The notes beneath the pieces are model-generated. The model was not told the DNA's origin. It ran no database searches and saw only the letters and a list, made by a program, of their open reading frames with translations. A stretch of 11,422 bases of DNA from the NCBI GenBank assembly GCA_023386855.1, contig JAEWIW010000399.1:1-11422 (forward strand). Direction: 5' to 3'. A program made the position numbers and the translations under genes. This DNA is from Bacteroidota bacterium. GTDB taxonomy: Bacteria > Bacteroidota > Bacteroidia > Chitinophagales > Chitinophagaceae. Positions 4 through 11,422 of the stretch are shown one piece after another. How positions within the stretch are numbered: the stretch's first letter is position 1; each line of letters opens with the position of its first letter.

Positions 4-1077
4 ATGCAGTTCCGGAATTTTAAAATGGTGGATTACGTGGTCTTCGGACGCAGTGCTTTTGACCAGCTTGATGAGATCCTGGCGCCCAGGCGTACCGAGG
101 AGGCCCCAATGGTTTTCCTGCTTGATCATTTCTTTGAAGGCAAACCGCTTGCCGACAGGATTCCCCTTCGCGGCAATGATAAACTGATCTTTGCTGATGT
201 TACCTACGAACCAAAAACAACCTATGTTGATTCCCTGGCCAATTCACTGAAAGAAGAATTTGGAACAGTAAGTGGAGTTATCGGCATCGGTGGCGGATCT
301 ACTATGGACCTTGCCAAGGCGGTATCCCTTATGATGACCAATCCCGGTTCTTCGGCCGATTACCAGGGATGGGACCTGGTGAAATTTCCCGGCGTTTATA
401 AGGCTGGTATACCCACATTGAGTGGAACAGGAGCGGAGGTTTCCAGGACAACCGTGTTAACAGGCCCTACAAGGAAACTGGGTATGAATTCAGATTTTAC
501 TCCATTCGACCAGATCGTACTGGACCCTACCCTTACCAGTAACGCCCCGGTAAACCAGCGCTTCTATACAGGCATGGATTGTTATATCCATTGTATTGAA
601 AGTCTTACGGGCACCTATCTTAATGAATTCAGTAAAGCTTATGGGGAAAAAGCACTGGACCTTTGCAGGAAAGTATTCGTGGATAAAAACCAATGGGATG
701 AGGAAAGTGACGACCAGCTGATGATGGCTTCCTATGCCGGCGGAATGAGTATCGCTTATTCACAGGTGGGTGTAGCACATGCGGTGAGCTATGGATTAAG
801 CTACCTGCTTGGAACAAAACATGGAATCGGTAATTGTATTGTATTTGATAAACTGGAAGAGTTCTATCCAGAAGGAGTAAAAGAATTCAAATACATGGTT
901 GAAAAAAATAATATCGAGATTCCCCAACATATAACAAAAGGGCTTACCGACCAGCAATTCGATGCCATGATCGAGGTATCTCTTGGTATGAAACCCTTAT
1001 GGGAAAATGCCCTGGGTAAAGACTGGGAGAAAATAATGACACGCGATAGACTCCGTGCCCTTTACGAAAAATTATAA
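4..1077 (+). CDS. kdnB: Iron-dependent alcohol dehydrogenase, probably 3-deoxy-D-manno-octulosonate (Kdo) 8-oxidase KdnB
   Basis: This 357-residue protein is a complete group III iron-dependent alcohol dehydrogenase. The NAD-binding glycine motif GGGSTMD lies at residues 96-102 and the family segment PTLSGTGAE at 137-145. The expected metal ligands are present as Asp192, His196 (DxxxH), His259 and His273, the last two 14 residues apart as in lactaldehyde reductase-type enzymes. Length and sequence flavour resemble KdnB, which oxidises C8 of Kdo so that the aminotransferase KdnA can make 8-amino-Kdo for lipopolysaccharide. Assignment to KdnB rather than another iron dehydrogenase rests on recalled similarity and is the less certain part. 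No kdnA is visible; it could lie beyond the left edge. The ATG sits three bases inside the window, so an upstream start cannot be excluded. A strong hairpin terminator follows. Confidence 0.72.
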   Translation: MQFRNFKMVDYVVFGRSAFDQLDEILAPRRTEEAPMVFLLDHFFEGKPLADRIPLRGNDKLIFADVTYEPKTTYVDSLANSLKEEFGTVSGVIGIGGGSTMDLAKAVSLMMTNPGSSADYQGWDLVKFPGVYKAGIPTLSGTGAEVSRTTVLTGPTRKLGMNSDFTPFDQIVLDPTLTSNAPVNQRFYTGMDCYIHCIESLTGTYLNEFSKAYGEKALDLCRKVFVDKNQWDEESDDQLMMASYAGGMSIAYSQVGVAHAVSYGLSYLLGTKHGIGNCIVFDKLEEFYPEGVKEFKYMVEKNNIEIPQHITKGLTDQQFDAMIEVSLGMKPLWENALGKDWEKIMTRDRLRALYEKL

Positions 1078-1102
1078 ACTAACCTGTCTTCTTTAATAGA
1101 GT

Positions 1103-1144
1103 AAAATCGGTCAGAACCATACCTGGTAGCTGACCGATTTTTAG
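1103..1144 (+). terminator. Rho-independent terminator after kdnB, possibly bidirectional
   Basis: A perfect 12-bp stem, AAAATCGGTCAG (1103-1114) against CTGACCGATTTT (1130-1141), encloses a 15-base loop and ends in a run of T. It lies 25 bases after the kdnB stop. The mirrored A run on the left arm means it could also stop transcripts of the convergent minus-strand gene that ends at 1193. Confidence 0.85.
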
Positions 1145-1192
1145 TATAAAATAAAATTTTGTTTCAGTTTCATGGGTTCAGACCCTTGGGAA

Positions 1193-1423
1193 CTAAACAT
1201 CCGTACGGCGGCTGCCACCTCTAAGGATTGCAACCAGTAAAAGGATGAATATGGCTGCGCCAACAACCCATACCCAAGGTGCTGCATACCAGTCGTCCGA
1301 CTTCGTATTAATATTTACATCCACCTGCTTATCCTGCGCTAAAGCAACTGACTGGTAAGTTGCTGCCATAATGAAAATAACCACCCGGTTAATCCATTTC
1401 ATAAAAGTTGATTTTACCTTCAT
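1193..1423 (-). CDS. Small exported or inner-membrane protein of unknown function (76 aa)
   Basis: I do not recognise a named family. The protein has a basic, hydrophobic N-terminus with a plausible signal-peptidase site after Ala29 (SVALA|QDK). A short polar stretch follows (residues 30-46, including VDVNINTKSDDW), then a strong transmembrane helix at about 50-67 and a short basic tail (RGGSRR). The mature product would be about 47 residues, anchored by one helix with the polar part outside the cytoplasm. Small proteins of this layout occur in Bacteroidota; that is recollection, not a search result. An internal Met at residue 8 (MKWINR) is an equally good start and gives a more typical signal peptide. 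The gene is divergent from the exported protein that starts at 1546. Confidence 0.65.
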   Translation of the reverse strand: MKVKSTFMKWINRVVIFIMAATYQSVALAQDKQVDVNINTKSDDWYAAPWVWVVGAAIFILLLVAILRGGSRRTDV

Positions 1424-1519
1424 GTTTCAGCTTTTTTAAACTTTAAAAAAAATTATGCCATTTATTTTTTCCCTGGCAGAGTAACTTTTGATAAACGGTA
1501 TGGCATTTCCGGACATTTC

Positions 1520-1532
1520 GATTAAATTAATC
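1520..1532. promoter_or_regulatory. Short palindrome upstream of the 188-aa exported protein
   Basis: GATTAA-A-TTAATC is a perfect 6-bp dyad around one central base. It ends 13 bases before the start codon at 1546, in the 122-bp divergent intergenic region. It could be an operator or a chance palindrome in AT-rich DNA. The same region also carries ATGCCAT (1454-1460) and its reverse complement ATGGCAT (1500-1506). No convincing TAnnTTTG -7 box was found; the nearest is TAACTTTTG, with one extra spacer base, at 1482-1490. Confidence 0.25.
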
Positions 1533-1545
1533 AAAAATTAATACA

Positions 1546-2112
1546 ATGAAAAAGTTATTGCTGGCGCTGGCACTTTTTACAGCATGGGGTGTTCATGCAC
1601 AGGAAAAATTCAAACCCGAGATCAAACAGGGAAGCAAGCTGACTTATTTGGTGAATATACAGGGCCAGGATATTCCATTGATCGTGTCCTATGATTCCAT
1701 TGCCACAGATTACCTAAAGCTGGGATGGAATATTGAAAGCCTCGGAACAGGAAGCTGGATAGCGAAAAAAAATTCTATTGATAATGCTACGCGTGGAATG
1801 TGGGATGAACCTGCACCGGGGGTGGATGCAGAAATTTCTGATGACCAGTCCGTTTTAATGCTTTCCAAAGCGCAATGGAAATCGCTCAAAGAAAATAATA
1901 AATTCGACTATGATCTTCAGTCTTTTGTTCCACAGGAAGCAACGGAAAGCGACCAGCTCATGCTCAATGACAAGCCTGTTGATGTGTTGCTTGTAAAAGG
2001 AGAAAATGGTTCCACCCGGCTTTGGATTCTCAATAATGAATCGCTTCCTTTAATTCTAAAAATTGAAGGCAACACCATGGGGCCCGATCTTGGCGTTAGT
2101 TCCATTGAATAA
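1546..2112 (+). CDS. Exported protein of unknown function (188 aa)
   Basis: I do not recognise this protein beyond its export signal. A textbook signal peptide (MKKLLLALALFTAWGVHA, cut before Gln19) precedes a soluble domain of about 170 residues. There is no lipobox cysteine and there are no further membrane helices, so a periplasmic location is likely. The mature part looks rich in beta strands. It begins with KQGSKLTYLVNIQGQDIPL and ends in LPLILKIEGNTMGPDLGVSSIE. That layout is reminiscent of small beta-barrel or lipoprotein-carrier-like periplasmic folds, but no diagnostic motif supports a function. The gene has its own terminator at 2201-2225 and is divergent from the 76-residue membrane protein, so it is probably transcribed alone. 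Confidence 0.75.
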   Translation: MKKLLLALALFTAWGVHAQEKFKPEIKQGSKLTYLVNIQGQDIPLIVSYDSIATDYLKLGWNIESLGTGSWIAKKNSIDNATRGMWDEPAPGVDAEISDDQSVLMLSKAQWKSLKENNKFDYDLQSFVPQEATESDQLMLNDKPVDVLLVKGENGSTRLWILNNESLPLILKIEGNTMGPDLGVSSIE

Positions 2113-2200
2113 TTGAGGCCGACCTGGTGTTACAATATTAATTAGAACCCGATCCCGGAGTTATTTTTATTGAATAAAGTATTACCCTTTCATGTTCCTT

Positions 2201-2225
2201 ATCCCGCTTTGGCGGGATTTTTTTT
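2201..2225 (+). terminator. Rho-independent terminator after the 188-aa exported protein
   Basis: A GC-rich hairpin, ATCCCGC (2201-2207) with GCGGGAT (2212-2218) around a four-base TTTG loop, leads into eight consecutive T. It lies 89 bases after the upstream stop codon and before corA. Confidence 0.9.
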
Positions 2226-2250
2226 GGGTTGGAATTAATACCTAATTTTC
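2223..2250 (+). promoter_or_regulatory. Weak candidate promoter for corA-nhaA
   Basis: TTTG (2223-2226) and TAATTTTC (2243-2250) are 16 bases apart. They resemble the Bacteroidota -33/-7 pair TTTG and TAnnTTTG, with one mismatch in the -7 box and a slightly short spacer. The -7 box ends 16 bases before the corA ATG. The -33 element overlaps the T-run of the preceding terminator, which weakens the call. Confidence 0.25.
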
Positions 2251-2266
2251 AGGATATCGTAATCAC

Positions 2267-3364
2267 ATGCGCAATACAAGATCGGCACTGAATTTCCTTA
2301 TACCTAACCACCGGGCTCATCGCGAAAGAACCAAAGCGATCGTCCATGCAAATCCGCAGCCAGATGAAAGAACGGATGCGGCTGAAGTGAAGATCAGTGT
2401 ATATGATTATGATGCCTCCGGTATACAAGAATACCACCTGGATACTATTGAAGCTTCATCAGAATTTTTGGATAACGGAAAGATCACATGGATCAATATC
2501 GATGGTATTCGTCAATCGGATATAAATGCCATTGCTTCCATTTTCAATATACATCGCCTGATTGTTGAAGATATATTGAGCATTCAGCAACGACCCAAGA
2601 TGGATGATATCGAGGGAAAGCTATATTGCCTGCTCAACATGATGTATTATAATGAAAGGCGTAAGACAGTTGAACTTGAACAGATCAGCATTGTATTAGG
2701 ACCGGATTACGTTATCAGTTTCCAGGCCGATGCAAAAAAGGATGTTTTCGATATTATCCGCAAAAAGCTCTTCATACAAACCAGCAATATCAGGCAAAGA
2801 ACAGCGGATTATCTTTTATATGCAATGCTCGATGTTATAGTGGATAATTATTTTGAGGTAATGGAAAAGTTAGGCAATGATATTGAAGCGGTGGAAGAGG
2901 AATTGAACCGCAAGAATACAACAAGATCACTCGCCCAGATTAATGCAGTAAGAAAAGAGATCATTGTATTGCAACGAAATATTACACCAGTACGCGATCT
3001 GGTCAATGATATTGTAAGAACCGAATCTGAACTTATCACTGAAAGAACAACCAAGTATTTCAAGGATGTATATGATCATATAGTCCAGGCCCATGAGCTG
3101 GTAGAAAACTACCGCGATCTCATGATGAACATGCAGGATCTTTATATCAGCAATGTTAACCTGAAGATGAATGAAGTGATGAAAGTTATGGCTGTAGTTA
3201 CCTGCCTGATGGCCCCTGCTACTGTAATAGGCGGTATATTTGGAATGAACTTCGATGTTATTCCTTTTTCCCACCAGGGACTTGGATTTTATCTTACCGT
3301 GGGTTTGATGTTATTTATTCCCCTGGTAATGTTATATATTTTCAAGCGTAGGGGATGGTTTTAA
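2267..3364 (+). CDS. corA: CorA-family magnesium/cobalt transporter
   Basis: This 365-residue protein has the full CorA layout. A cytoplasmic alpha/beta domain comes first, followed by a long helical stalk of charged heptad-like segments (roughly residues 195-305). Two C-terminal membrane helices (about 306-325 and 339-358) flank the invariant pore motif GMN at residues 326-328. The tail is basic (FKRRGWF), as is usual for the cytoplasmic C-terminus. The segment YRDLMMNMQDLYISNVNLKMNEVMKVM just before the first helix is characteristic of the family. CorA proteins form homopentameric channels in the inner membrane that let Mg2+, and often Co2+ or Ni2+, enter the cell. Length is normal. nhaA follows after 23 bases with no terminator between them, so the two are probably co-transcribed as an ion-homeostasis unit. 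Confidence 0.95.
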   Translation: MRNTRSALNFLIPNHRAHRERTKAIVHANPQPDERTDAAEVKISVYDYDASGIQEYHLDTIEASSEFLDNGKITWINIDGIRQSDINAIASIFNIHRLIVEDILSIQQRPKMDDIEGKLYCLLNMMYYNERRKTVELEQISIVLGPDYVISFQADAKKDVFDIIRKKLFIQTSNIRQRTADYLLYAMLDVIVDNYFEVMEKLGNDIEAVEEELNRKNTTRSLAQINAVRKEIIVLQRNITPVRDLVNDIVRTESELITERTTKYFKDVYDHIVQAHELVENYRDLMMNMQDLYISNVNLKMNEVMKVMAVVTCLMAPATVIGGIFGMNFDVIPFSHQGLGFYLTVGLMLFIPLVMLYIFKRRGWF

Positions 3365-3387
3365 TTTTTGGATGAAAGAACTTCAGG

Positions 3388-4575
3388 ATGAATTATAAAT
3401 TGACTAAACTATTCAGGGAGTTTTATGAAAGCGGGAAATTAAGTGGCATTATCCTGATCCTTTGTACGGTATTAACTTTGCTGGCCGTCAATACAGGAAT
3501 GGGTGATAGTTACTCAGGTTTCCTTCACAACTATACTGATTTATCTGTTTGGAAAATACGCCTGCATTTATCTAATGAACACTGGATCAATGATGGTTTG
3601 ATGACCATTTTCTTCCTGATGGTGGGTTTAGAAATCGAAAGAGAATTATACCAGGGTGAACTATCTTCCTTAAGCAATGCATCCTTACCTATCGCTGCAG
3701 CTATTGGTGGTATGGCTGTGCCTGCGCTGATACATTTTATGCTTAATGGTGGAACACCCACGCAGGCAGGCTTTGGAATACCCATGGCCACAGACATTGC
3801 ATTTTCTTTAGGCATTCTTTCGCTATTAGGAAAGCGGGTACCTGCCTCCATAAAAATTTTTCTTACTGCGCTTGCCATCATTGATGATCTTGGAGCTGTA
3901 GCGGTGATCGCGATATTTTATACTGCAGATTTCAGCACTTTTCATTTCGCTATTTCGATTGGCATCTTTCTTCTGCTGATGATCTTCAACAGGATCGGTA
4001 TACTTAATCTTTGGATGTACCTGGTTCCCGGGGTGGTGATGTGGTACTTCATGTTGCATTCCGGTGTACATGCTACTATCACCGGTGTGCTACTGGCATT
4101 TGCTATTCCCTCCACAAGGGTGGATGATGATACCAATCCTTCCTATTGGTTACAGCACAGGCTTCATCATCCTGTTTCTTATGTCATCCTTCCCATTTTC
4201 GCAATTGCCAATACAGGCATACCCCTGTCGGGTGATGCTTATAGAAGCCTTTTTACACAAAACAGCCTGGGTATATCATTAGGACTAATCTTGGGTAAAC
4301 CCGTTGGAATTCTATCGGCCTGTTATATAATGATCAAATCAAAATTATCAACACTTCCGGGTGATGTGAATTTTAAATTGATCCTGGGAGCCGGGTTACT
4401 TGCAGGAATTGGTTTTACCATGTCGGTATTTATTTCCAACCTTGCCTTTTCTGATGCTGAACATATTACTGCTTCAAAGATGGCCATTTTGCTGGCATCC
4501 ACTATTTCTGGTATTGCCGGCTTTTTTTACCTAAATAAAATACTGGGAAAAGAAAATATTGAGCAGGCAGGGTAG
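3388..4575 (+). CDS. nhaA: NhaA-type Na+/H+ antiporter
   Basis: This 395-residue polytopic membrane protein expels Na+ (or Li+) in exchange for protons and supports pH and salt homeostasis. The family's functional residues are visible. Asp136 in PMATDIAFSLG corresponds to Asp133 of E. coli NhaA. The pair Asp166-Asp167 in LAIIDDLGA corresponds to Asp163-Asp164, which bind the ion. The ILGKPVGI segment carries the lysine equivalent to Lys300. About twelve hydrophobic helices span the sequence. Length matches the family (E. coli 388). It is 23 bases downstream of corA and is probably translated from the same transcript. No good hairpin terminator follows; the downstream stretch instead holds degenerate tandem repeats. 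Confidence 0.96.
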   Translation: MNYKLTKLFREFYESGKLSGIILILCTVLTLLAVNTGMGDSYSGFLHNYTDLSVWKIRLHLSNEHWINDGLMTIFFLMVGLEIERELYQGELSSLSNASLPIAAAIGGMAVPALIHFMLNGGTPTQAGFGIPMATDIAFSLGILSLLGKRVPASIKIFLTALAIIDDLGAVAVIAIFYTADFSTFHFAISIGIFLLLMIFNRIGILNLWMYLVPGVVMWYFMLHSGVHATITGVLLAFAIPSTRVDDDTNPSYWLQHRLHHPVSYVILPIFAIANTGIPLSGDAYRSLFTQNSLGISLGLILGKPVGILSACYIMIKSKLSTLPGDVNFKLILGAGLLAGIGFTMSVFISNLAFSDAEHITASKMAILLASTISGIAGFFYLNKILGKENIEQAG

Positions 4576-4616
4576 GTTTTTGCCGCTGCTAAAATTCAAT
4601 TCAGCAAGTTTGAAAA

Positions 4617-4779
4617 AATAAGAAACCAGGCTTTTTTTGACCAATAAAATTGGATAGGGTATATTTAATCAAAGCTGCAAGCAGGCTTTTTCCAACAGAA
4701 AAATTTTTCCTGACTATTTAATGAAAGCCGCAATCAAGCTTTTTCCCACCAATAAAAATTGGATTCAGCATATTCAACG
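4617..4779. repeat. Three degenerate ~54-bp tandem repeats at the nhaA/GNAT junction, the last overlapping the GNAT 3' end
   Basis: Units run at about 4617-4670, 4671-4723 and 4724-4779. 4662-4693 and 4715-4746 match at 28 of 32 positions with an offset of 53. Units one and three share ACCAATAAAATTGGAT (4640-4655) and the same string with one extra A (4748-4764), offset 108. The phased GC+T-run motif recurs at 4630, 4685 and 4738. The third unit contains the last codons and stop of the GNAT gene, so the outer two look like decayed copies of that gene end. The second and third units could also fold AAAGC-N9-GCTTTTT into weak terminator-like hairpins. Confidence 0.75.
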
Positions 4780-5180
4780 AACCCGCAGGAAGGATATAGT
4801 TTATTCCCAATAGCATTAATCTTTTCTGTTTCCAGGAGAAGTCCTGCTGATCCTGTTTCGCGTGCGAACTGCTGTGCTGCTTTTATGAGTGCTTTTCCAA
4901 TGCCCAATCCACGGTAAATTTCCAGCACAAAAAGGTCGTTCAGAATCCAAAGCCTTTTCATCCGGGTAGAAGAGAACTGTGGATACAGTTGTGTAAACCC
5001 AAGCAGTTTTCCTTCCTCCTCGGCGACAATGATCTCTGATTCGCCGTTTTTCATTCTTTCCTGGATGAAAAGTTTTGCCGCAGGCCTGTCTGAATTCTGC
5101 CTGTAAAATATCCTGTACAGATCAAATAAATCGGCTATTTGTTCAAGATCTGTTTCTACCGCATGACGAATGGTGATCAT
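4734..5180 (-). CDS. GNAT-family N-acetyltransferase (148 aa)
   Basis: This is a single GNAT domain of normal length. The acetyl-CoA pyrophosphate-binding motif A is clear as YRGLGIGKALIKAA, with Arg90, Gly91, Gly93 and Gly95 in the R/QxxGxG/A pattern, preceded by the strand LNDLFVLEIYR. Motif B follows at NKLYPSCGF, with Tyr129 in the position of the usual catalytic or thiolate-protonating tyrosine. The substrate cannot be inferred; small-molecule amines or a protein N-terminus are possible. The start is 30 bases downstream of the DUF2480 stop on the same strand, which suggests one transcript. The C-terminal codons (SNFYWWEKA and stop) lie within the third unit of a degenerate tandem repeat that continues past the gene. 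Confidence 0.9.
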   Translation of the reverse strand: MITIRHAVETDLEQIADLFDLYRIFYRQNSDRPAAKLFIQERMKNGESEIIVAEEEGKLLGFTQLYPQFSSTRMKRLWILNDLFVLEIYRGLGIGKALIKAAQQFARETGSAGLLLETEKINAIGNKLYPSCGFVEYAESNFYWWEKA

Positions 5181-5210
5181 TGTTTTATTCTTGAAATGTA
5201 ATGCTGGTCA

Positions 5211-5732
5211 TTATTGACCGACTTCTCTTTTTTGTTTATAAATGGGTACGGTGCTACAAGGTTCACCATACATCAGGCTTTTAACTATCGGCCTTAATAA
5301 TCTTGTGATCTCAAGATAAGCGTATTCCGCAACGTTCAGTTCACCGCAACCTTTTATCACCACTCTTTGATCCTGGAACTGGGCCAGGTCGATCTTACGG
5401 AGATTACTTATAAAGGCCTGCCGCAAGGCCTCCGATCCGGAACCAAAAATAATATCAGCAGCATAAGGTTGCAGGTAGGATCCTACCAACATGTATGCCC
5501 ATCGTGGAATGATGGAATCAGCGGAACATTCTACTGCCACAATTTTATCCTGGTATACCGACCAGTCGATCTGCAATAAAGCGGCCCTGAATTCTTTTTC
5601 CTTCAGTATAAGCTCCATGAAAAGATGGGGCTTAAGATCGAAAACAATGATTTCCTCCCTTGGGTAATAATCTTCAAGGTCAAGGCTCATGATAGCGCTA
5701 CCGGCCACTTTATTCACAATAGGTTCATTCAT
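5211..5732 (-). CDS. DUF2480 family protein
   Basis: This 173-residue soluble protein matches the Bacteroidota DUF2480 family as I remember it. The diagnostic stretches are SLDLEDYYP near the N-terminus (residues 16-24), a WSVYQ segment, AVECSADSIIPRWAYMLVGSYLQPYA in the middle, VVIKGCGEL, and the C-terminal VKSLMYGEPCSTVPIYK. Conserved Cys residues occur in CSAD, KGCGE and EPCS. There is no signal peptide or membrane helix, so it should be cytoplasmic. Its biochemical role is unknown and I assign none. It probably leads a two-gene unit with the downstream GNAT gene, behind the -7 box at 5751-5758. Confidence 0.88.
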   Translation of the reverse strand: MNEPIVNKVAGSAIMSLDLEDYYPREEIIVFDLKPHLFMELILKEKEFRAALLQIDWSVYQDKIVAVECSADSIIPRWAYMLVGSYLQPYAADIIFGSGSEALRQAFISNLRKIDLAQFQDQRVVIKGCGELNVAEYAYLEITRLLRPIVKSLMYGEPCSTVPIYKQKREVGQ

Positions 5733-5750
5733 TCACTAAAATTTCTTCTG

Positions 5751-5758
5751 CAAAATTA
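5751..5758 (-). promoter_or_regulatory. Candidate -7 box for the DUF2480-GNAT unit
   Basis: On the minus strand this reads TAATTTTG, a perfect match to the Bacteroidota -7 consensus TAnnTTTG. It would start transcription about 11 bases upstream of the DUF2480 ATG. No TTG or TTTG was found at the expected -33 position, which lies next to the ppiD terminator, so the call is tentative. Confidence 0.35.
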
Positions 5759-5784
5759 ATCATTCCTCTACCCTTACTATACAT

Positions 5785-5811
5785 AAAAAAAGCGGCCAGG
5801 CCGGCCGCTTT
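5785..5811 (-). terminator. Rho-independent terminator of ppiD
   Basis: Read on the minus strand, AAAGCGGCC (5811-5803) pairs with GGCCGCTTT (5797-5789) around a five-base loop and runs into seven T (5791-5785). It begins only 8 bases after the ppiD stop codon and separates ppiD from the DUF2480-GNAT unit. Confidence 0.92.
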
Positions 5812-5818
5812 CAATCTG

Positions 5819-7954
5819 CTAGAAGAACTTGTATCGTTCATCTTTTATTTTCACATCTTTCTTAAGGATCTCCAGGATCAGCCTCGGGTCGGAAAACGCA
5901 CGCTGCTGGTATTGCTGCATGGCCGATTGCTGCTGAACAGCATTGAAACCTTCGTTGGAAAGAGCACTAACTTTTTCAGTCCTTATCACAAATACTCCTG
6001 AATAACCAGGAATAGGAGCCGAAACTTTTTGAAGGTTGCCCTTATAAAAACTTGCACCCACTACCTTGGCTTCCTGGCCAACATTTGGTACAAAGGGGCT
6101 GCTGAATAAAATGGTATCCGCTTTGGCCACCTGTACAGCAAACTTCTGTGCTACTGCTTCAAGTGTTGATGGCGTTCCCATTTTATCGATAATCTGTTCA
6201 GCTTTTTTCTCATTGCGGATTACAGGTTCCACTGAAGAGCGTGCAACAGAAACCGGCATCAGTCCTTTATCATAAGAAGCAGTAAGAACAGGTACAACAT
6301 ATTTATCACCCACGAGAATAGGACGATCAGCTACATCACCAACTTCAGCATCATACATCCATTTCACCAGCTCACGGCTAGTTCCCAAACCAGAGATCAT
6401 AGTTTCCATCGGCTTGATGTCAACAGCAGAAAATTTGGTATAGTTTTTCTTTTGTGCGATCTGTTCAAATTCTTTTTTGGATCGTGCTTCACCAACAAAT
6501 TGAGAAGCGAGGCCCATGGCTTTATTCATGGTTTCATCGCTTGCATAGATAGGCTTGGTGAGGTATGCAATTTTATAGGCAGGTTCAAAATTTTTCTGAC
6601 TTAATACTTCAATGTAGTGATAACCTGAATAAGTTGGGTTTTCAACCTTAACGGTTTTCTTGTCACCAGTTTTTCCAAGGAAAGCTGTTTCGGCAAATTC
6701 CTTACTAAGGTTTCCATATTGCATTGAACTGAATTCATAAACCCCTCCAGTTTCTTTTGATCCTTCATCTTCACTGAATCTTGCCACAAGTGTATCAAAG
6801 TTTGCACCTGCATTCAATGCATTCACGATACTATCAATTCTTTTTTTGGCAACACTGTCTGGAGTGGTAGGCATGCCCTGCTCAGCGGTCTTGATCAGGA
6901 TGTGACGAACCTTCACTGAATCAGGAAGGGTTCTTTTTTCCACCATCTTGGCCAGCGTATAGTTTGTATTATCGATATAAGGACCAAATACCTGGCCTTC
7001 GGATAATTGCATCAGGCTATCGGCATTGGGAACCTGTAATTTTGATTTCTGAACATAACCATTATAATAAGGAGTCTCACTTCCGTTTCTTGAAATGAAA
7101 GAGGATACATCATTAGTGGTGATAAATTCTTCTTTCAGGGCAAGCACCTGCTCGAGTACAGCTGCACTATCCTGCTGGGTAGGAGCAGCATCAAACATTA
7201 CATATTCGATAGATCTTGATTCCTCCTGCTGGTAATCATCTTTATGAGCATCGAGGTAAGACTGAACATCTTTATCACTCACTTTAACTGCAGAATCAGA
7301 TATTGAAGAATATGGAATGGAAACATAAGAGATGGAAGCCTGCTGGCTATCATCACTGATCATTTTTTCCACCAGCCAACGGGGAACATAAACGGTATTG
7401 GCGATAAGGGAAAGATATTTTTCTCTTTGCCTGGCTTTCACCAGTGCAGGAAGGTACTGGTTAAAGAAGCTGTTGTACATAGGACTGTTCTTTTGCTTCC
7501 TCAGTGCCTGGATTTGCTGGTAAGCAAGGTTGGCATCATATACGCCGGTTTTGGGATCACTGAATTGCTGGCGAAGATCCTGTGGAGGATTTGCTCCATA
7601 TAATATATCACTCAATTCTTTATCGGAAACTTCAAGGCCCAGTTCATCATAGTGATCATTCATGATCGCATTTTCCACGTATTCATTCCAAAGACTTTCG
7701 CGGATATTTGCCTTCATCATATCGTTGAGGGCATAACCCTGGTTACGGTATTGAGTCTCGGCCTGGTTAACTCGGGTTTCAAATTCAATAGCATTCACTT
7801 TCTCGCCATTGATTACACCTAGTGTATTGGCGGAACGGTTAAACATGCTGCTGTTGTGAAAAGCATCCTGTACAACGAATGCGATAAGGGCAATGGCAAT
7901 GGCACCGATAATGATCCATGCGGCTTTGTCACGGATGGTCTGAATGATCGACAT
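5819..7954 (-). CDS. ppiD: PpiD/SurA-type membrane-anchored peptidyl-prolyl cis-trans isomerase
   Basis: This 711-residue protein has the PpiD plan. A short cytoplasmic N-terminus (MSIIQTIRDKAAW) leads into a single transmembrane anchor (about residues 12-28) and a SurA-N-like helical chaperone region (about 40-200). A parvulin domain at about 346-455 starts with VKVRHILIKT and contains FSEDEGSKETGG and GYHYIEV. A second helical, possibly degenerate parvulin-like, region follows towards the C-terminus. Family members sit in the inner membrane facing the periplasm and help newly exported proteins fold. It is longer than E. coli PpiD (623 residues), which is common in Bacteroidota. The gene has its own promoter candidate (8061-8092), a palindrome in its leader and a strong terminator, so it is probably monocistronic. 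Isomerase activity is not certain, because parvulin domains of PpiD proteins are often weak. Confidence 0.9.
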   Translation of the reverse strand: MSIIQTIRDKAAWIIIGAIAIALIAFVVQDAFHNSSMFNRSANTLGVINGEKVNAIEFETRVNQAETQYRNQGYALNDMMKANIRESLWNEYVENAIMNDHYDELGLEVSDKELSDILYGANPPQDLRQQFSDPKTGVYDANLAYQQIQALRKQKNSPMYNSFFNQYLPALVKARQREKYLSLIANTVYVPRWLVEKMISDDSQQASISYVSIPYSSISDSAVKVSDKDVQSYLDAHKDDYQQEESRSIEYVMFDAAPTQQDSAAVLEQVLALKEEFITTNDVSSFISRNGSETPYYNGYVQKSKLQVPNADSLMQLSEGQVFGPYIDNTNYTLAKMVEKRTLPDSVKVRHILIKTAEQGMPTTPDSVAKKRIDSIVNALNAGANFDTLVARFSEDEGSKETGGVYEFSSMQYGNLSKEFAETAFLGKTGDKKTVKVENPTYSGYHYIEVLSQKNFEPAYKIAYLTKPIYASDETMNKAMGLASQFVGEARSKKEFEQIAQKKNYTKFSAVDIKPMETMISGLGTSRELVKWMYDAEVGDVADRPILVGDKYVVPVLTASYDKGLMPVSVARSSVEPVIRNEKKAEQIIDKMGTPSTLEAVAQKFAVQVAKADTILFSSPFVPNVGQEAKVVGASFYKGNLQKVSAPIPGYSGVFVIRTEKVSALSNEGFNAVQQQSAMQQYQQRAFSDPRLILEILKKDVKIKDERYKFF

Positions 7955-7970
7955 ATTATATAATAATTAC

Positions 7971-7986
7971 GTACACCCTGGTGTAC
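7971..7986. promoter_or_regulatory. Perfect palindrome in the ppiD leader
   Basis: GTACACC-CT-GGTGTAC is an exact 7-bp dyad with a two-base centre. It lies 16 bases upstream of the ppiD start codon and downstream of the predicted promoter. The position suits a repressor operator or an mRNA hairpin (six pairs with a four-base loop) near the ribosome site. No regulator is identifiable. Confidence 0.4.
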
Positions 7987-8060
7987 TTTTAATGATGACT
8001 TACAAACATCATGAATTAAATCTGCCTTTTTGAAATTTTGGCCGGATTTTTCATGGCTGG

Positions 8061-8092
8061 CAAAAATAGCGGTAAATGTGCTTATTAACAAA
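8061..8092 (-). promoter_or_regulatory. Bacteroidota-type promoter for ppiD
   Basis: On the minus strand TTTG (8092-8089) is followed after 20 bases by TATTTTTG (8068-8061). This exactly matches the Bacteroidota sigma consensus TTTG-N(about 17-21)-TAnnTTTG. Transcription would start near 8054 and give a leader of about 100 bases that contains the palindrome at 7971-7986. A DnaA-box-like site (8094-8102) abuts the -33 element. Confidence 0.55.
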
Positions 8093-8234
8093 TTGTGGAA
8101 AAGCTGCTGCAAATCTTGATTTATAAGGGTTTCAGCTGTTGGATCCCCGGGATAGGAACTATGATATTGTCCAAATGGCAAAATATTTTAACGCTACGAT
8201 AATACCTGTGGAACAATGCCGTGAAACCTTGATT

Positions 8235-8262
8235 AACAGGCTTAGTGGAAAAGCCTGTTTTT
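8235..8262 (+). terminator. Terminator-like hairpin inside the candidate origin region
   Basis: AACAGGCTT (8235-8243) pairs perfectly with AAGCCTGTT (8251-8259) around a seven-base loop and is followed by T to 8262. It has the form of a plus-strand intrinsic terminator, yet no plus-strand gene precedes it. It may stop an unannotated short RNA or stray transcription entering the origin, or be a structural element. Confidence 0.4.
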
Positions 8263-8504
8263 ATGGGGATAAGACTGGTTTTTTGCATCTGCGGGTGGTG
8301 GGTAACTGGGGAATAAAAATGAGGATCGCAAATTGACCATCGATCTGTGTAGATAATCCCCAATTTATCCCTGTTCATTCCACACCCTTTTTTGTAAAAA
8401 GGCGAAGAAAGATTTTCCCTGCTTTTTTATATGAACAGAAGTGGATAAGCATATTAAACCCGCTAAAATCCTGGTAAAATTACTGTGGATTAGAAGTGGG
8501 AAAC

Positions 8505-8513
8505 TGTGGATAA
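8505..8513 (-). promoter_or_regulatory. Perfect DnaA box
   Basis: TGTGGATAA on the plus strand is the exact complement of the DnaA box TTATCCACA. It is one of six same-orientation boxes (at most one mismatch) between 8094 and 8513. It shares ACTGTGGAT with the box at 8484-8492, placed exactly 21 bp (two helical turns) away. Confidence 0.75.
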
Positions 8514-8588
8514 ACAGGAAGGATTAACTTTACCAAACTAATCACGGTCAAAGTTTTCCCCGAATCCACAGCCGTAATAGTAATAGGG

Positions 8589-8620
8589 TTTTTTATAAAT
8601 TATATAGTTATTAATAAATA
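8589..8620. other. AT-rich tract, putative DNA unwinding element
   Basis: 31 of 32 bases are A or T, ending two bases before the nadA ATG. It adjoins the direct repeat TAATAG-TAATAG (8575-8586). Its place at one edge of the DnaA-box cluster fits an origin unwinding element; it must also serve as the nadA leader. Confidence 0.5.
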
Positions 8621-8622
8621 CT

Positions 8623-9633
8623 ATGGAGCTTATTAACACAGATAATTCAGCACTGGCTATCGGAAAAAATGGTTTTCTTGATATTGAAATTGACCCGACA
8701 CTCGATTTGTTTCACGAGATCGAATTGTTGAAAAAAGAGAAGAACGCCGTGGTGCTGGCGCATTATTACCAGGAGCCCGACATCCAGGATGTTGCTGACT
8801 ATATCGGCGATAGTCTTGGATTAGCCCAGCAGGCCCAGAAAACCGAGGCTGATATGATTGTATTTGCAGGAGTTCATTTCATGGCGGAAACTGCCAAGAT
8901 CCTTAACCCTTCCAAAAAAGTGGTGCTTCCCGACCTGAATGCCGGTTGTTCGCTGGCCGACTCTGCCCCACCGGCCCTGTTTAAAAAGTTCAGGGAGCAG
9001 CATCCCGATCACATAGTTATTTCCTATATCAACTGCTCGGCGGGAATCAAGGCGCTCAGCGATATTATCTGCACCAGCAGTAATGCTGCTTACATTGTGG
9101 ATAGCATCCCTGAAGACCAGGGGATCATCTTTGCTCCTGATAAAAACCTTGGTGCTTATTTAAACCGTAAAACGGGGAGGAATATGTTGCTATGGAATGG
9201 AGCCTGCATGGTGCACGAAATCTTTAGCCTTGAAAAGATCATGAAACTAAGGATCCGCCATCCCAAAGCAAAACTGATCGCACATCCTGAATGTGAAGAT
9301 GCCGTGCTAAAACTGGCGGATTATGTTGGTTCCACAACGGGGTTGCTAAAATTTTCACAGAACGATGAGGCACAGGAATACATTGTGGCCACTGAAACGG
9401 GCATTCTTCATCAGATGCAAAAGAACAGTCCTCATAAAACCTTTATTCCTGCTCCTCCTACAAATAGTTGTGCCTGTAACGACTGCCCGCATATGAAGCT
9501 CAATACACTCGAGAAACTGTATGTTTGCATGAAGTATGAACTGCCGGAAATTCTTATGGATGAAGATTTAAGAATAGCCGCTAAAAAGCCGATCGACAGG
9601 ATGCTGGAGATCAGTGCTAAGGCAGGACTCTGA
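8623..9633 (+). CDS. nadA: Quinolinate synthase NadA
   Basis: This 336-residue enzyme condenses iminoaspartate with dihydroxyacetone phosphate to make quinolinate, the precursor of NAD. Family hallmarks are present: [29 protein letters not shown] near the N-terminus, and three cysteine regions for the [4Fe-4S] cluster. These are Cys109 in [11 protein letters not shown], Cys195 in WNGACMVHE, and the C-terminal CACNDCPHM, where Cys288 is the likely third ligand. HPEC and the VGSTTG substrate-binding segment are also in place. Length is normal for the type with a three-domain pseudo-trimeric fold. nadB and nadC are not in the window. The gene starts directly against the AT-rich edge of the candidate origin, and no clear promoter box was found. 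An RDD protein gene follows after 22 bases. Confidence 0.96.
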
Positions 9634-10111: not shown

Positions 10112-10154
10112 TTTGTCTGGTAAGGGAACTTTTCCTATATATTTACCTGTTGCT

Positions 10155-11422
10155 ATGAAGTTCACCCTTTTTTTACTGATGATATTTTGCGGGATATTTA
10201 TTTCCCAGGGCGTTATAGGTCAATGTACAACCCTTGGTCAGAATCCCTCCACTGCCTTCCCCGTTTGTGGAACGGCTACTTTTTCCCAAAAGGATGTTCC
10301 CTTATGCGGGGGACGATTTATTCCAAGTCCCTGTTCCAGGGATGAAGGTTTGTCTGATGTCAATCCTTTCTGGTACAAGTTCACTGCCTTTACTGAAGGA
10401 ACTCTTGGATTTGTGATTACACCTGCAACCATATCAGATGATTATGACTGGCAGGTATTTGATATTACGAATCGTAATCCTGATGATGTGTATACAGATG
10501 CTTCTTTGTTTGTAGCATCGAACTGGTCGGGGGAAGGTGGAAAAACCGGCGCCAGTGCTGCTGGAACTTCATTGAATGTTTGTGGTGGATATGGAAAGCC
10601 TCTCTATAGTTCAATGCCTAAACTTAAAAAAGGACATAATTATCTTTTATTGGTTAGCCATTTTACACAAACACAAAGTGGATATACATTGGAGTTTAAA
10701 GGAGGTACCGCAAGTATTACGGATACCACTCAACCCTTACTGGTAAAGGCTTTTGCAGGTTGTGATGACAGTACCATTAATGTAGTAATGAACAAAAGGA
10801 TGAGTTGTTCGTCTCTTGCCGCCAATGGTTCCTACTTTTTTCTTAATGATACTTATGTAGAAATCATTGTTGCCGCTTCATTGACCTGTAGTAAATCCTT
10901 TGACATGGATACACTTCAACTTCAATTGAAAAACTCCCTGGTACCAGGATCATATAAACTTTCTGTGAAGATGGGTTCCGATAATAATACTATTCTCGAT
11001 TATTGTAATACTGGTATCCCGGTGGATGATGAATTGAGTTTTGAAGTGTTGCCTGTTAAGCCTACTCCTTTTGATAGTATCATTCCTGTAAACTGTGCTC
11101 CGCAAGCACTGGAATTTTATTTCAGGAATAGTATTCTTTGTAACAGTGTTGGTAAAGATGGAAAAGAATTTATTGTTCGGGGGCCTCAAGCTGTAAATGT
11201 TGTTTCTGCCGAAGTAAATTGTATTGACAAGAAAACCTCTTCCATAAGGATTATCCTGTCTGCTCCCCTGGTATCAGGTGGAGATTATTCGGTAGAGCTC
11301 GCAAGGGGTACTGATGGTAATACCCTGATTGACGAATGCAGCCAGGAAACCCCTGTTGGTTCAGTTGTCCGCTTTTCTGTAAAAGATACCGTTTCGGCAA
11401 ACTTTACCTTTAGCATTACCCC
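10155..11422 (+). CDS. Large secreted protein with tandem Ig-like repeats, 3' end beyond the window
   Basis: The frame stays open from the ATG at 10155 to the window edge, giving 422 residues without a stop. A signal peptide (MKFTLFLLMIFCGIFISQ, cut near Gly22 before Gln-Cys) is followed by a Cys-rich, beta-rich N-terminal domain (about 24-192, with FWYKFTA, DYDWQVFDIT and YLLLVSHFT). Two Ig-like repeats follow (about 194-304 and 305-415). Their cysteines, 203/218/245/284 and 314/329/356/395, have identical spacing. This organisation is typical of long Bacteroidota surface proteins that end in a gliding-associated type IX secretion sorting domain. The end is not visible, so that is inference, and adhesion is the likeliest but unproven role. 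The gene begins 43 bases after the RDD gene, with no terminator seen between them. Confidence 0.85.
   Translation, partial: MKFTLFLLMIFCGIFISQGVIGQCTTLGQNPSTAFPVCGTATFSQKDVPLCGGRFIPSPCSRDEGLSDVNPFWYKFTAFTEGTLGFVITPATISDDYDWQVFDITNRNPDDVYTDASLFVASNWSGEGGKTGASAAGTSLNVCGGYGKPLYSSMPKLKKGHNYLLLVSHFTQTQSGYTLEFKGGTASITDTTQPLLVKAFAGCDDSTINVVMNKRMSCSSLAANGSYFFLNDTYVEIIVAASLTCSKSFDMDTLQLQLKNSLVPGSYKLSVKMGSDNNTILDYCNTGIPVDDELSFEVLPVKPTPFDSIIPVNCAPQALEFYFRNSILCNSVGKDGKEFIVRGPQAVNVVSAEVNCIDKKTSSIRIILSAPLVSGGDYSVELARGTDGNTLIDECSQETPVGSVVRFSVKDTVSANFTFSIT

Follow-up and report, generated by a model that had tools for sequence, protein, structure and literature searches.

A probable chromosomal replication origin between ppiD and nadA in Chitinophagaceae, with a conserved box-spacer-trio element

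Results

The stretch of DNA analysed here (the window) comprises 11,422 nucleotides from a Chitinophagaceae bacterium and contains a gap of 668 bp (7955–8622) between two divergent genes. Its left neighbour is ppiD, encoding a PpiD/SurA-like peptidyl-prolyl isomerase (5819–7954, minus strand; Pfam PF13623 and PF13616), and its right neighbour is nadA, encoding quinolinate synthase (8623–9633, plus strand; PF02445). A preliminary description of this DNA had placed a candidate chromosomal origin of replication (oriC) in the gap, and its reading of the 668 bp as gene-free, with ppiD on the minus and nadA on the plus strand, was borne out. Using Pfam, we scanned nine window proteins, identifying an Fe-ADH, a protein without a Pfam match, CorA, NhaA, a GNAT acetyltransferase, a DUF2480 protein, the SurA/PpiD-like isomerase, NadA and an RDD protein; a tenth frame (10113–11420), cut by the window end, was left out of the scan. 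No tRNA was found in the window, and neither dnaA, gidA nor mioC adjoins the gap there. Upstream of ppiD, a promoter-like site of the Bacteroidetes type (TTTG-N20-TATTTTTG, 8061–8092, minus strand) was recognized by its match to what we take to be the consensus; the CAAAAATAG word within it is present in 54 of 75 gaps.

The preliminary description had also pointed to minus-strand genes on the left and plus-strand genes on the right as the strand bias of an origin. This holds for the minus-strand genes at 4.7–8.0 kb but not for the genes listed at 4–4575, which are on the plus strand. As only the nearest left-hand genes have the expected orientation, the argument is weak, and C. pinensis stretches near the gap also lack a clear bias; we therefore rejected gene-strand bias as origin evidence.

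Motif searches of the gap located six sites within one mismatch of the DnaA box TTATCCACA, all on the minus strand and none on the plus strand. These are a perfect TTATCCACA at 8505–8513, the boxes TAATCCACA (8484–8492), TTATCCACT (8440–8448) and TTTTCCACA (8094–8102), and the box-like sites TTATCTACA (8348–8356) and TTATCCCCA (8264–8272). The count, orientation and single perfect site all agree with the preliminary description, as does the spacing of 21 bp between the best pair (starts at 8484 and 8505). Its estimate that fewer than 0.2 such sites would arise by chance was about right, since dinucleotide shuffles of 8094–8622 gave a mean of 0.22 sites over both strands, and none of 5,000 shuffles reached six. 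Across the whole window, a looser TTATNCACA motif with one mismatch occurred 23 times against 13.8 expected, a number reached by 5 of 200 shuffles; this enrichment is mild, so the box signal is local. The box at 8094–8102 directly adjoins the ppiD promoter-like site (together 8061–8102), and a similar box lies at its position in most of 12 close relatives aligned. A DnaA-box cluster of the kind looked for in a chromosomal oriC is present in the window.

When the window was aligned with the 12 close gaps, one block before nadA was almost unchanged. It belongs to a core at 8554–8622, most conserved over 8554–8585, that does not appear in the preliminary description and consists of a tandem pair of DnaA boxes, a spacer of 3 bp, four trios and a tract of A+T-rich DNA. 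On the plus strand, box 1 (TTTTCCCCG, 8554–8562, three mismatches) overlaps box 2 (GAATCCACA, 8562–8570, two mismatches) by one base, and is followed after box 2 by the G+C spacer GCC (8571–8573). Four DnaA-trios, reading GTA-ATA-GTA-ATA on the top strand and 3'-NAN-5' on the bottom (minus) strand, occupy 8574–8585. Beyond them lies a tract of 86% A+T (8586–8622), the likely DNA unwinding element, which includes the 31 A+T bases in 32 that the preliminary description had reported (8589–8620).

From this alignment, we derived a search pattern comprising a box end, a short spacer and three TAR-type repeats. The element was found within 260 bp upstream of nadA in 78 of 81 nadA loci, against an expectation of 0.001 per locus from the rest of the loci, a contrast that is not blind because the pattern was taken from the loci in which it was counted. 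In these 78 loci the position of the tandem boxes is kept and the element ends 12–160 bp ahead of the nadA start. The three misses have degenerate repeats (L023 and L056) or an altered box end (L025); an earlier, stricter pattern with four TAR repeats had missed 30 nadA loci. The spacer measures 3 bp in 78 of 78 elements, where the pattern allowed 1–4 bp, and all 78 carry at least four top-strand NTN trios (bottom 3'-NAN-5'), of which the pattern required three. Invariance of the final ACA of box 2 is partly built in, as the pattern demanded it, and an alignment of 49 non-redundant elements has 10 invariant columns, mostly required by the pattern. Over the 40 bp past the third trio, A+T content averages 86% (78 loci).

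The arrangement resembles the basal unwinding system (BUS), which is described as a DnaA box or box pair separated by no more than 16 bp from three or more 3'-NAN-5' trios (PMC8287927). According to the same source, a BUS is predicted in 1,755 of 2,070 origins, with 3'-GAT-5' as the commonest trio, and the box-pair rule allows up to two mismatches in one box and up to four in the other. The window pair, with three and two mismatches, falls within this rule, as do 67 of the 78 elements, while 11, including those of C. pinensis and L034, exceed the published limits; a strict version of the rule gave 69 matches in all 81 loci, 68 of them upstream of nadA. The distance from box to first trio and the number of trios lie within the published definition in all 78 elements. 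As in the B. subtilis BUS (PMC8287927, PMC6669920), a box pair is followed by a short G+C spacer, at least three trios and A+T-rich DNA. Unlike the BUS as set out in these sources, the Chitinophagaceae element has boxes that overlap by one base, a spacer that is always 3 bp, at least four trios, and trios among which 3'-CAT-5', TAT and GAT prevail instead of GAT as the main form. The assayed species named in the available part of PMC8287927 include no Bacteroidetes.

We next considered the gap in relatives of the window. Eighty nadA relatives (76–83% identical) were kept, most of them titled Chitinophagaceae or its genera and some only Bacteroidota, Sphingobacteriales or the like. The preliminary description had proposed conservation of the gap as a check, and the gap is conserved: ppiD lies divergent from nadA in 74 of the 80, with gap sizes of 448–967 bp in 62 and 2.7–3.1 kb in 12, and the unwinding element is present in 77. 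The six relatives without ppiD are three whose sequences start less than 1 kb before nadA (L003, L039 and L056) and three Niabella (L044, L050 and L057). In relatives with a long gap the element remains with nadA; in one of these (L006), Pfam identified an S46 peptidase gene (7227–9392) that separates ppiD from the candidate origin and lies towards ppiD, and by eye a frame resembling it occupies the same place in Niabella L044.

DnaA boxes occur at 4.42 per kb in 75 gaps (337 in 76 kb) compared with 0.47 per kb elsewhere in these loci (600 in 1,272 kb), an approximately 9-fold contrast that is inflated, and may in part reflect composition, because the flanks are mostly coding and the gaps noncoding and richer in A+T. 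Perfect boxes number 44 in the gaps and 60 in the rest of these 75 loci, the window included, and ATCCACA, ATTCACA and similar words are enriched in the gaps. Eight of the 75 gaps hold a single box (L021, L026, L033, L034, L052, L060, L076 and L080), among them that of L034, the locus whose ppiD is the most similar to that of the window.

The preliminary description had named several other regions of equal or greater box density as a point against an origin. In 0.8 Mb of C. pinensis samples one place was equally dense, a coding repeat; of the 75 loci, 56 have their densest 500 bp at the gap and 19 have a flank that is equal or denser. The C. pinensis chromosome has 62 perfect boxes, of which 3 are in the gap and 4 in the coding repeat. 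Such a repeat forms a further box cluster, some 10 kb away from nadA, in C. pinensis and L070; we rejected this cluster as a rival origin since it lies within coding sequence: the protein has DVDK/NVDK-like repeats whose codons read TGTGGATAA. Dense boxes, several of them perfect, were observed inside such a repeat gene at L070:19366–20793 and L123:12146–13657, and genes of this kind are a trap for origin finders that count boxes.

An origin in the gap should coincide with the minimum of cumulative GC skew. This was the case to within 4 kb in three of six sampled relatives, while in the other three the minimum lay 22–95 kb away. The complete C. pinensis chromosome (LR632930, G001; 6.3 Mb) was sampled at 40 places of 20 kb each, and the other five genomes along the nadA-bearing contig, with the dense stretches picked around nadA. 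Within a contiguous stretch of C. pinensis (680–1,100 kb), the minimum falls at 877,942, 3.7 kb from the gap at approximately 881,663–882,424. Along its right arm (0.9–3.9 Mb), 8 of 11 coarse samples were positive and 3 had the wrong, negative sign (at 1.2, 2.4 and 3.0 Mb); along the left arm (4.2–6.0 and 0–0.6 Mb), 8 of 9 samples were negative and 1 was zero. The minimum lies about 20 bp outside the gap in Flavihumibacter solisilvae (292,093) and inside nadA in Niastella yeongjuensis (797,744). In N. caeni the skew has a local minimum near nadA but reaches a lower value at a distance of 95 kb. Strain IBVUCB2 has a noisy skew with its minimum 22 kb away, and in Niabella pedocola the minimum, 44 kb away, is beside low-G+C DNA and close to where the contiguous stretch ends. 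With ppiD, DUF2480 and nadA left out, skew was higher on the nadA side in 40 of 53 usable loci (of 75; sign test, P = 3e-4, for loci that are not independent of one another). In the window itself, which is too short to decide the matter, skew is positive at both ends.

The low-G+C DNA of Niabella (L205–L207; G008:C5, 2.08–2.22 Mb) has 38–41% G+C against a background of 44–51% and lies beside the nadA region; it is possibly a genomic island next to oriC.

The preliminary description had further implied that oriC lies away from dnaA, and this is supported by every relative in which the distance could be taken. Of 12 relatives searched, five (G001, G003, G004, G005 and G009) carry dnaA and nadA on one contig, 0.68–1.23 Mb apart, whereas in the other seven the genes are on different contigs. 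In C. pinensis, dnaA is at 1.685 Mb, 0.8 Mb from the gap. The dnaA loci of all 12 genomes (eleven of 3.2 kb and one of 3.1 kb) contain 0–2 boxes each, and all 12 DnaA proteins retain GGRDHTT, which we take to mark the box-binding helix-turn-helix.

Finally, we built a 60-position sequence model of the element and ran it on 79 genomes of the order. The model matched 43 of the 79 at E 0.1, and 43 genomes have a Pfam NadA match. Inspected by eye, these 43 NadA genomes comprise 10 with a model match beside nadA (G001, G039, G049, G055, G062, G066, G067, G077, G089 and G091), 14 with a match only elsewhere and 19 with none. Matches in the 14 are mostly weak, the strong one being in G053, 331 kb from nadA. 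A link of the element to nadA is thus not established for the order as a whole. The model was scored on at most 69 (order) or 37 (phylum) first-look candidates per genome, out of about 80–7,400; with so few scored the search is insensitive, and misses are no evidence of absence.

In the phylum, 55 of 148 genomes matched at E 0.1, most of them weakly. Matches at E < 1e-4 were obtained in eleven genomes (G089, G066, G001, G107, G384, G053, G100, G039, G350, G418 and G452), where the neighbours are ppiD and nadA in five, ppiD alone in G100, rpiB in G350 and other genes in four. By eye, the G100 and G350 sequences have the same box-spacer-trio order. Among 3-kb loci, the element occurs without nadA in L238, beside ppiD, and at L240:1500–1560, beside rpiB. 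A weak model match (E 0.016) in L250 also lies beside rpiB.

Discussion

We conclude that the ppiD–nadA gap is very probably the chromosomal replication origin of this Chitinophagaceae bacterium, with oriC as proposed spanning 8094–8622. The proposal of the preliminary description is supported by the skew minimum in three of six relatives, by the box enrichment across 75 loci and by the conserved box-spacer-trio element abutting an A+T tract, and the present analysis gives a more precise anatomy than that description did. By analogy with the published basal unwinding system, DnaA would bind the box array (8094–8513) and the tandem boxes (8554–8570), and would be guided from the latter across the 3-bp spacer onto the bottom-strand trios (8574–8585). 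It could then open the A+T-rich tract (8586–8622), where helicase would be loaded and replication would start in both directions.

The same boxes could instead make the gap a DnaA-controlled regulatory region or a DnaA titration site for ppiD and nadA, with the true origin elsewhere. The box adjoining the ppiD promoter-like site would suit this explanation, as would the distant skew minima in three of six genomes and the further dense box arrays near nadA in some Chitinophaga. We nonetheless judge it improbable, since in three genomes the skew minimum lies no more than 4 kb from the gap, and boxes, spacer and trios are arranged as in an unwinding element, an arrangement found also where nadA is absent (L238 and L240). 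As for the arrays, a tandem-repeat region at L067:11940–12580, 2 kb downstream of nadA, holds ten boxes with at most one mismatch, all in one orientation and spaced by about 62 bp; only a chance-like frame of 100 amino acids overlaps it. In L041, eight boxes fall within about 500 bp at +2.6 kb. Such arrays might serve for DnaA titration or belong to the origin as an accessory part.

More improbable still is that the conserved TAATAGTAATAG block serves nadA as an operator or leader and has no part in an origin. Such a role would suit the location of its end, 12–160 bp upstream of the nadA start in those 78 of 81 loci that carry it, but the same element is found without nadA in L238 and L240, it follows the DnaA boxes at a fixed 3 bp with a strict 3-bp period, and no Rfam family matches the window at the gathering score. 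That the gap is the origin of a plasmid or phage, whether integrated or free, can be practically dismissed, even though such origins too have DnaA-box clusters: the search of 72,556 plasmid and 50,697 phage records gave no match at E 1e-5, the nine scanned window proteins include no replication initiator, 74 of 80 relatives have the gap flanked by ppiD and nadA, and in C. pinensis this gap is part of a 6.3-Mb chromosome, close to the skew switch.

In other bacteria, oriC is found next to dnaA or between gidA and mioC. The latter location is also given in PMC10225481. The chromosomal origin proposed here shares with these a DnaA-box cluster in an intergenic gap and differs in that neither dnaA, gidA nor mioC adjoins it. 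That oriC is commonly far from dnaA in Bacteroidetes is already known and not new (PMC4755523, citing DoriC). The Prevotella intermedia oriC described there has several DnaA boxes at the skew switch and away from dnaA. The present candidate likewise has several boxes away from dnaA, and in three of six sampled relatives it is within 4 kb of the skew minimum; its neighbours are ppiD and nadA, whereas the available part of that source names none for Prevotella. Among the literature matches listed, none had a title or opening of the abstract concerned with an oriC of Chitinophagaceae, and a DoriC prediction may exist.

As dnaA is no marker of the origin in Bacteroidetes (PMC4755523), origins are hard to place in draft genomes and metagenome bins. 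For Chitinophagaceae, a fixed landmark (the nadA start) together with a fixed element would ease estimates of replication rate, strand annotation and origin cloning, and with the element one could cleanly test how widely the published unwinding mechanism applies. Around the 60-bp element the neighbours vary, being ppiD and nadA in Chitinophagaceae and ppiD alone or rpiB elsewhere. We hold in even balance the wider proposal that this element (overlapping boxes, 3-bp spacer, four trios and A+T tract) forms a conserved oriC core in much of Bacteroidota, with changing neighbours. If so, the element would allow origins to be placed in drafts and metagenomic genomes for which dnaA is uninformative. 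On a smaller scale, the box next to the promoter-like site suggests that DnaA might also regulate ppiD.
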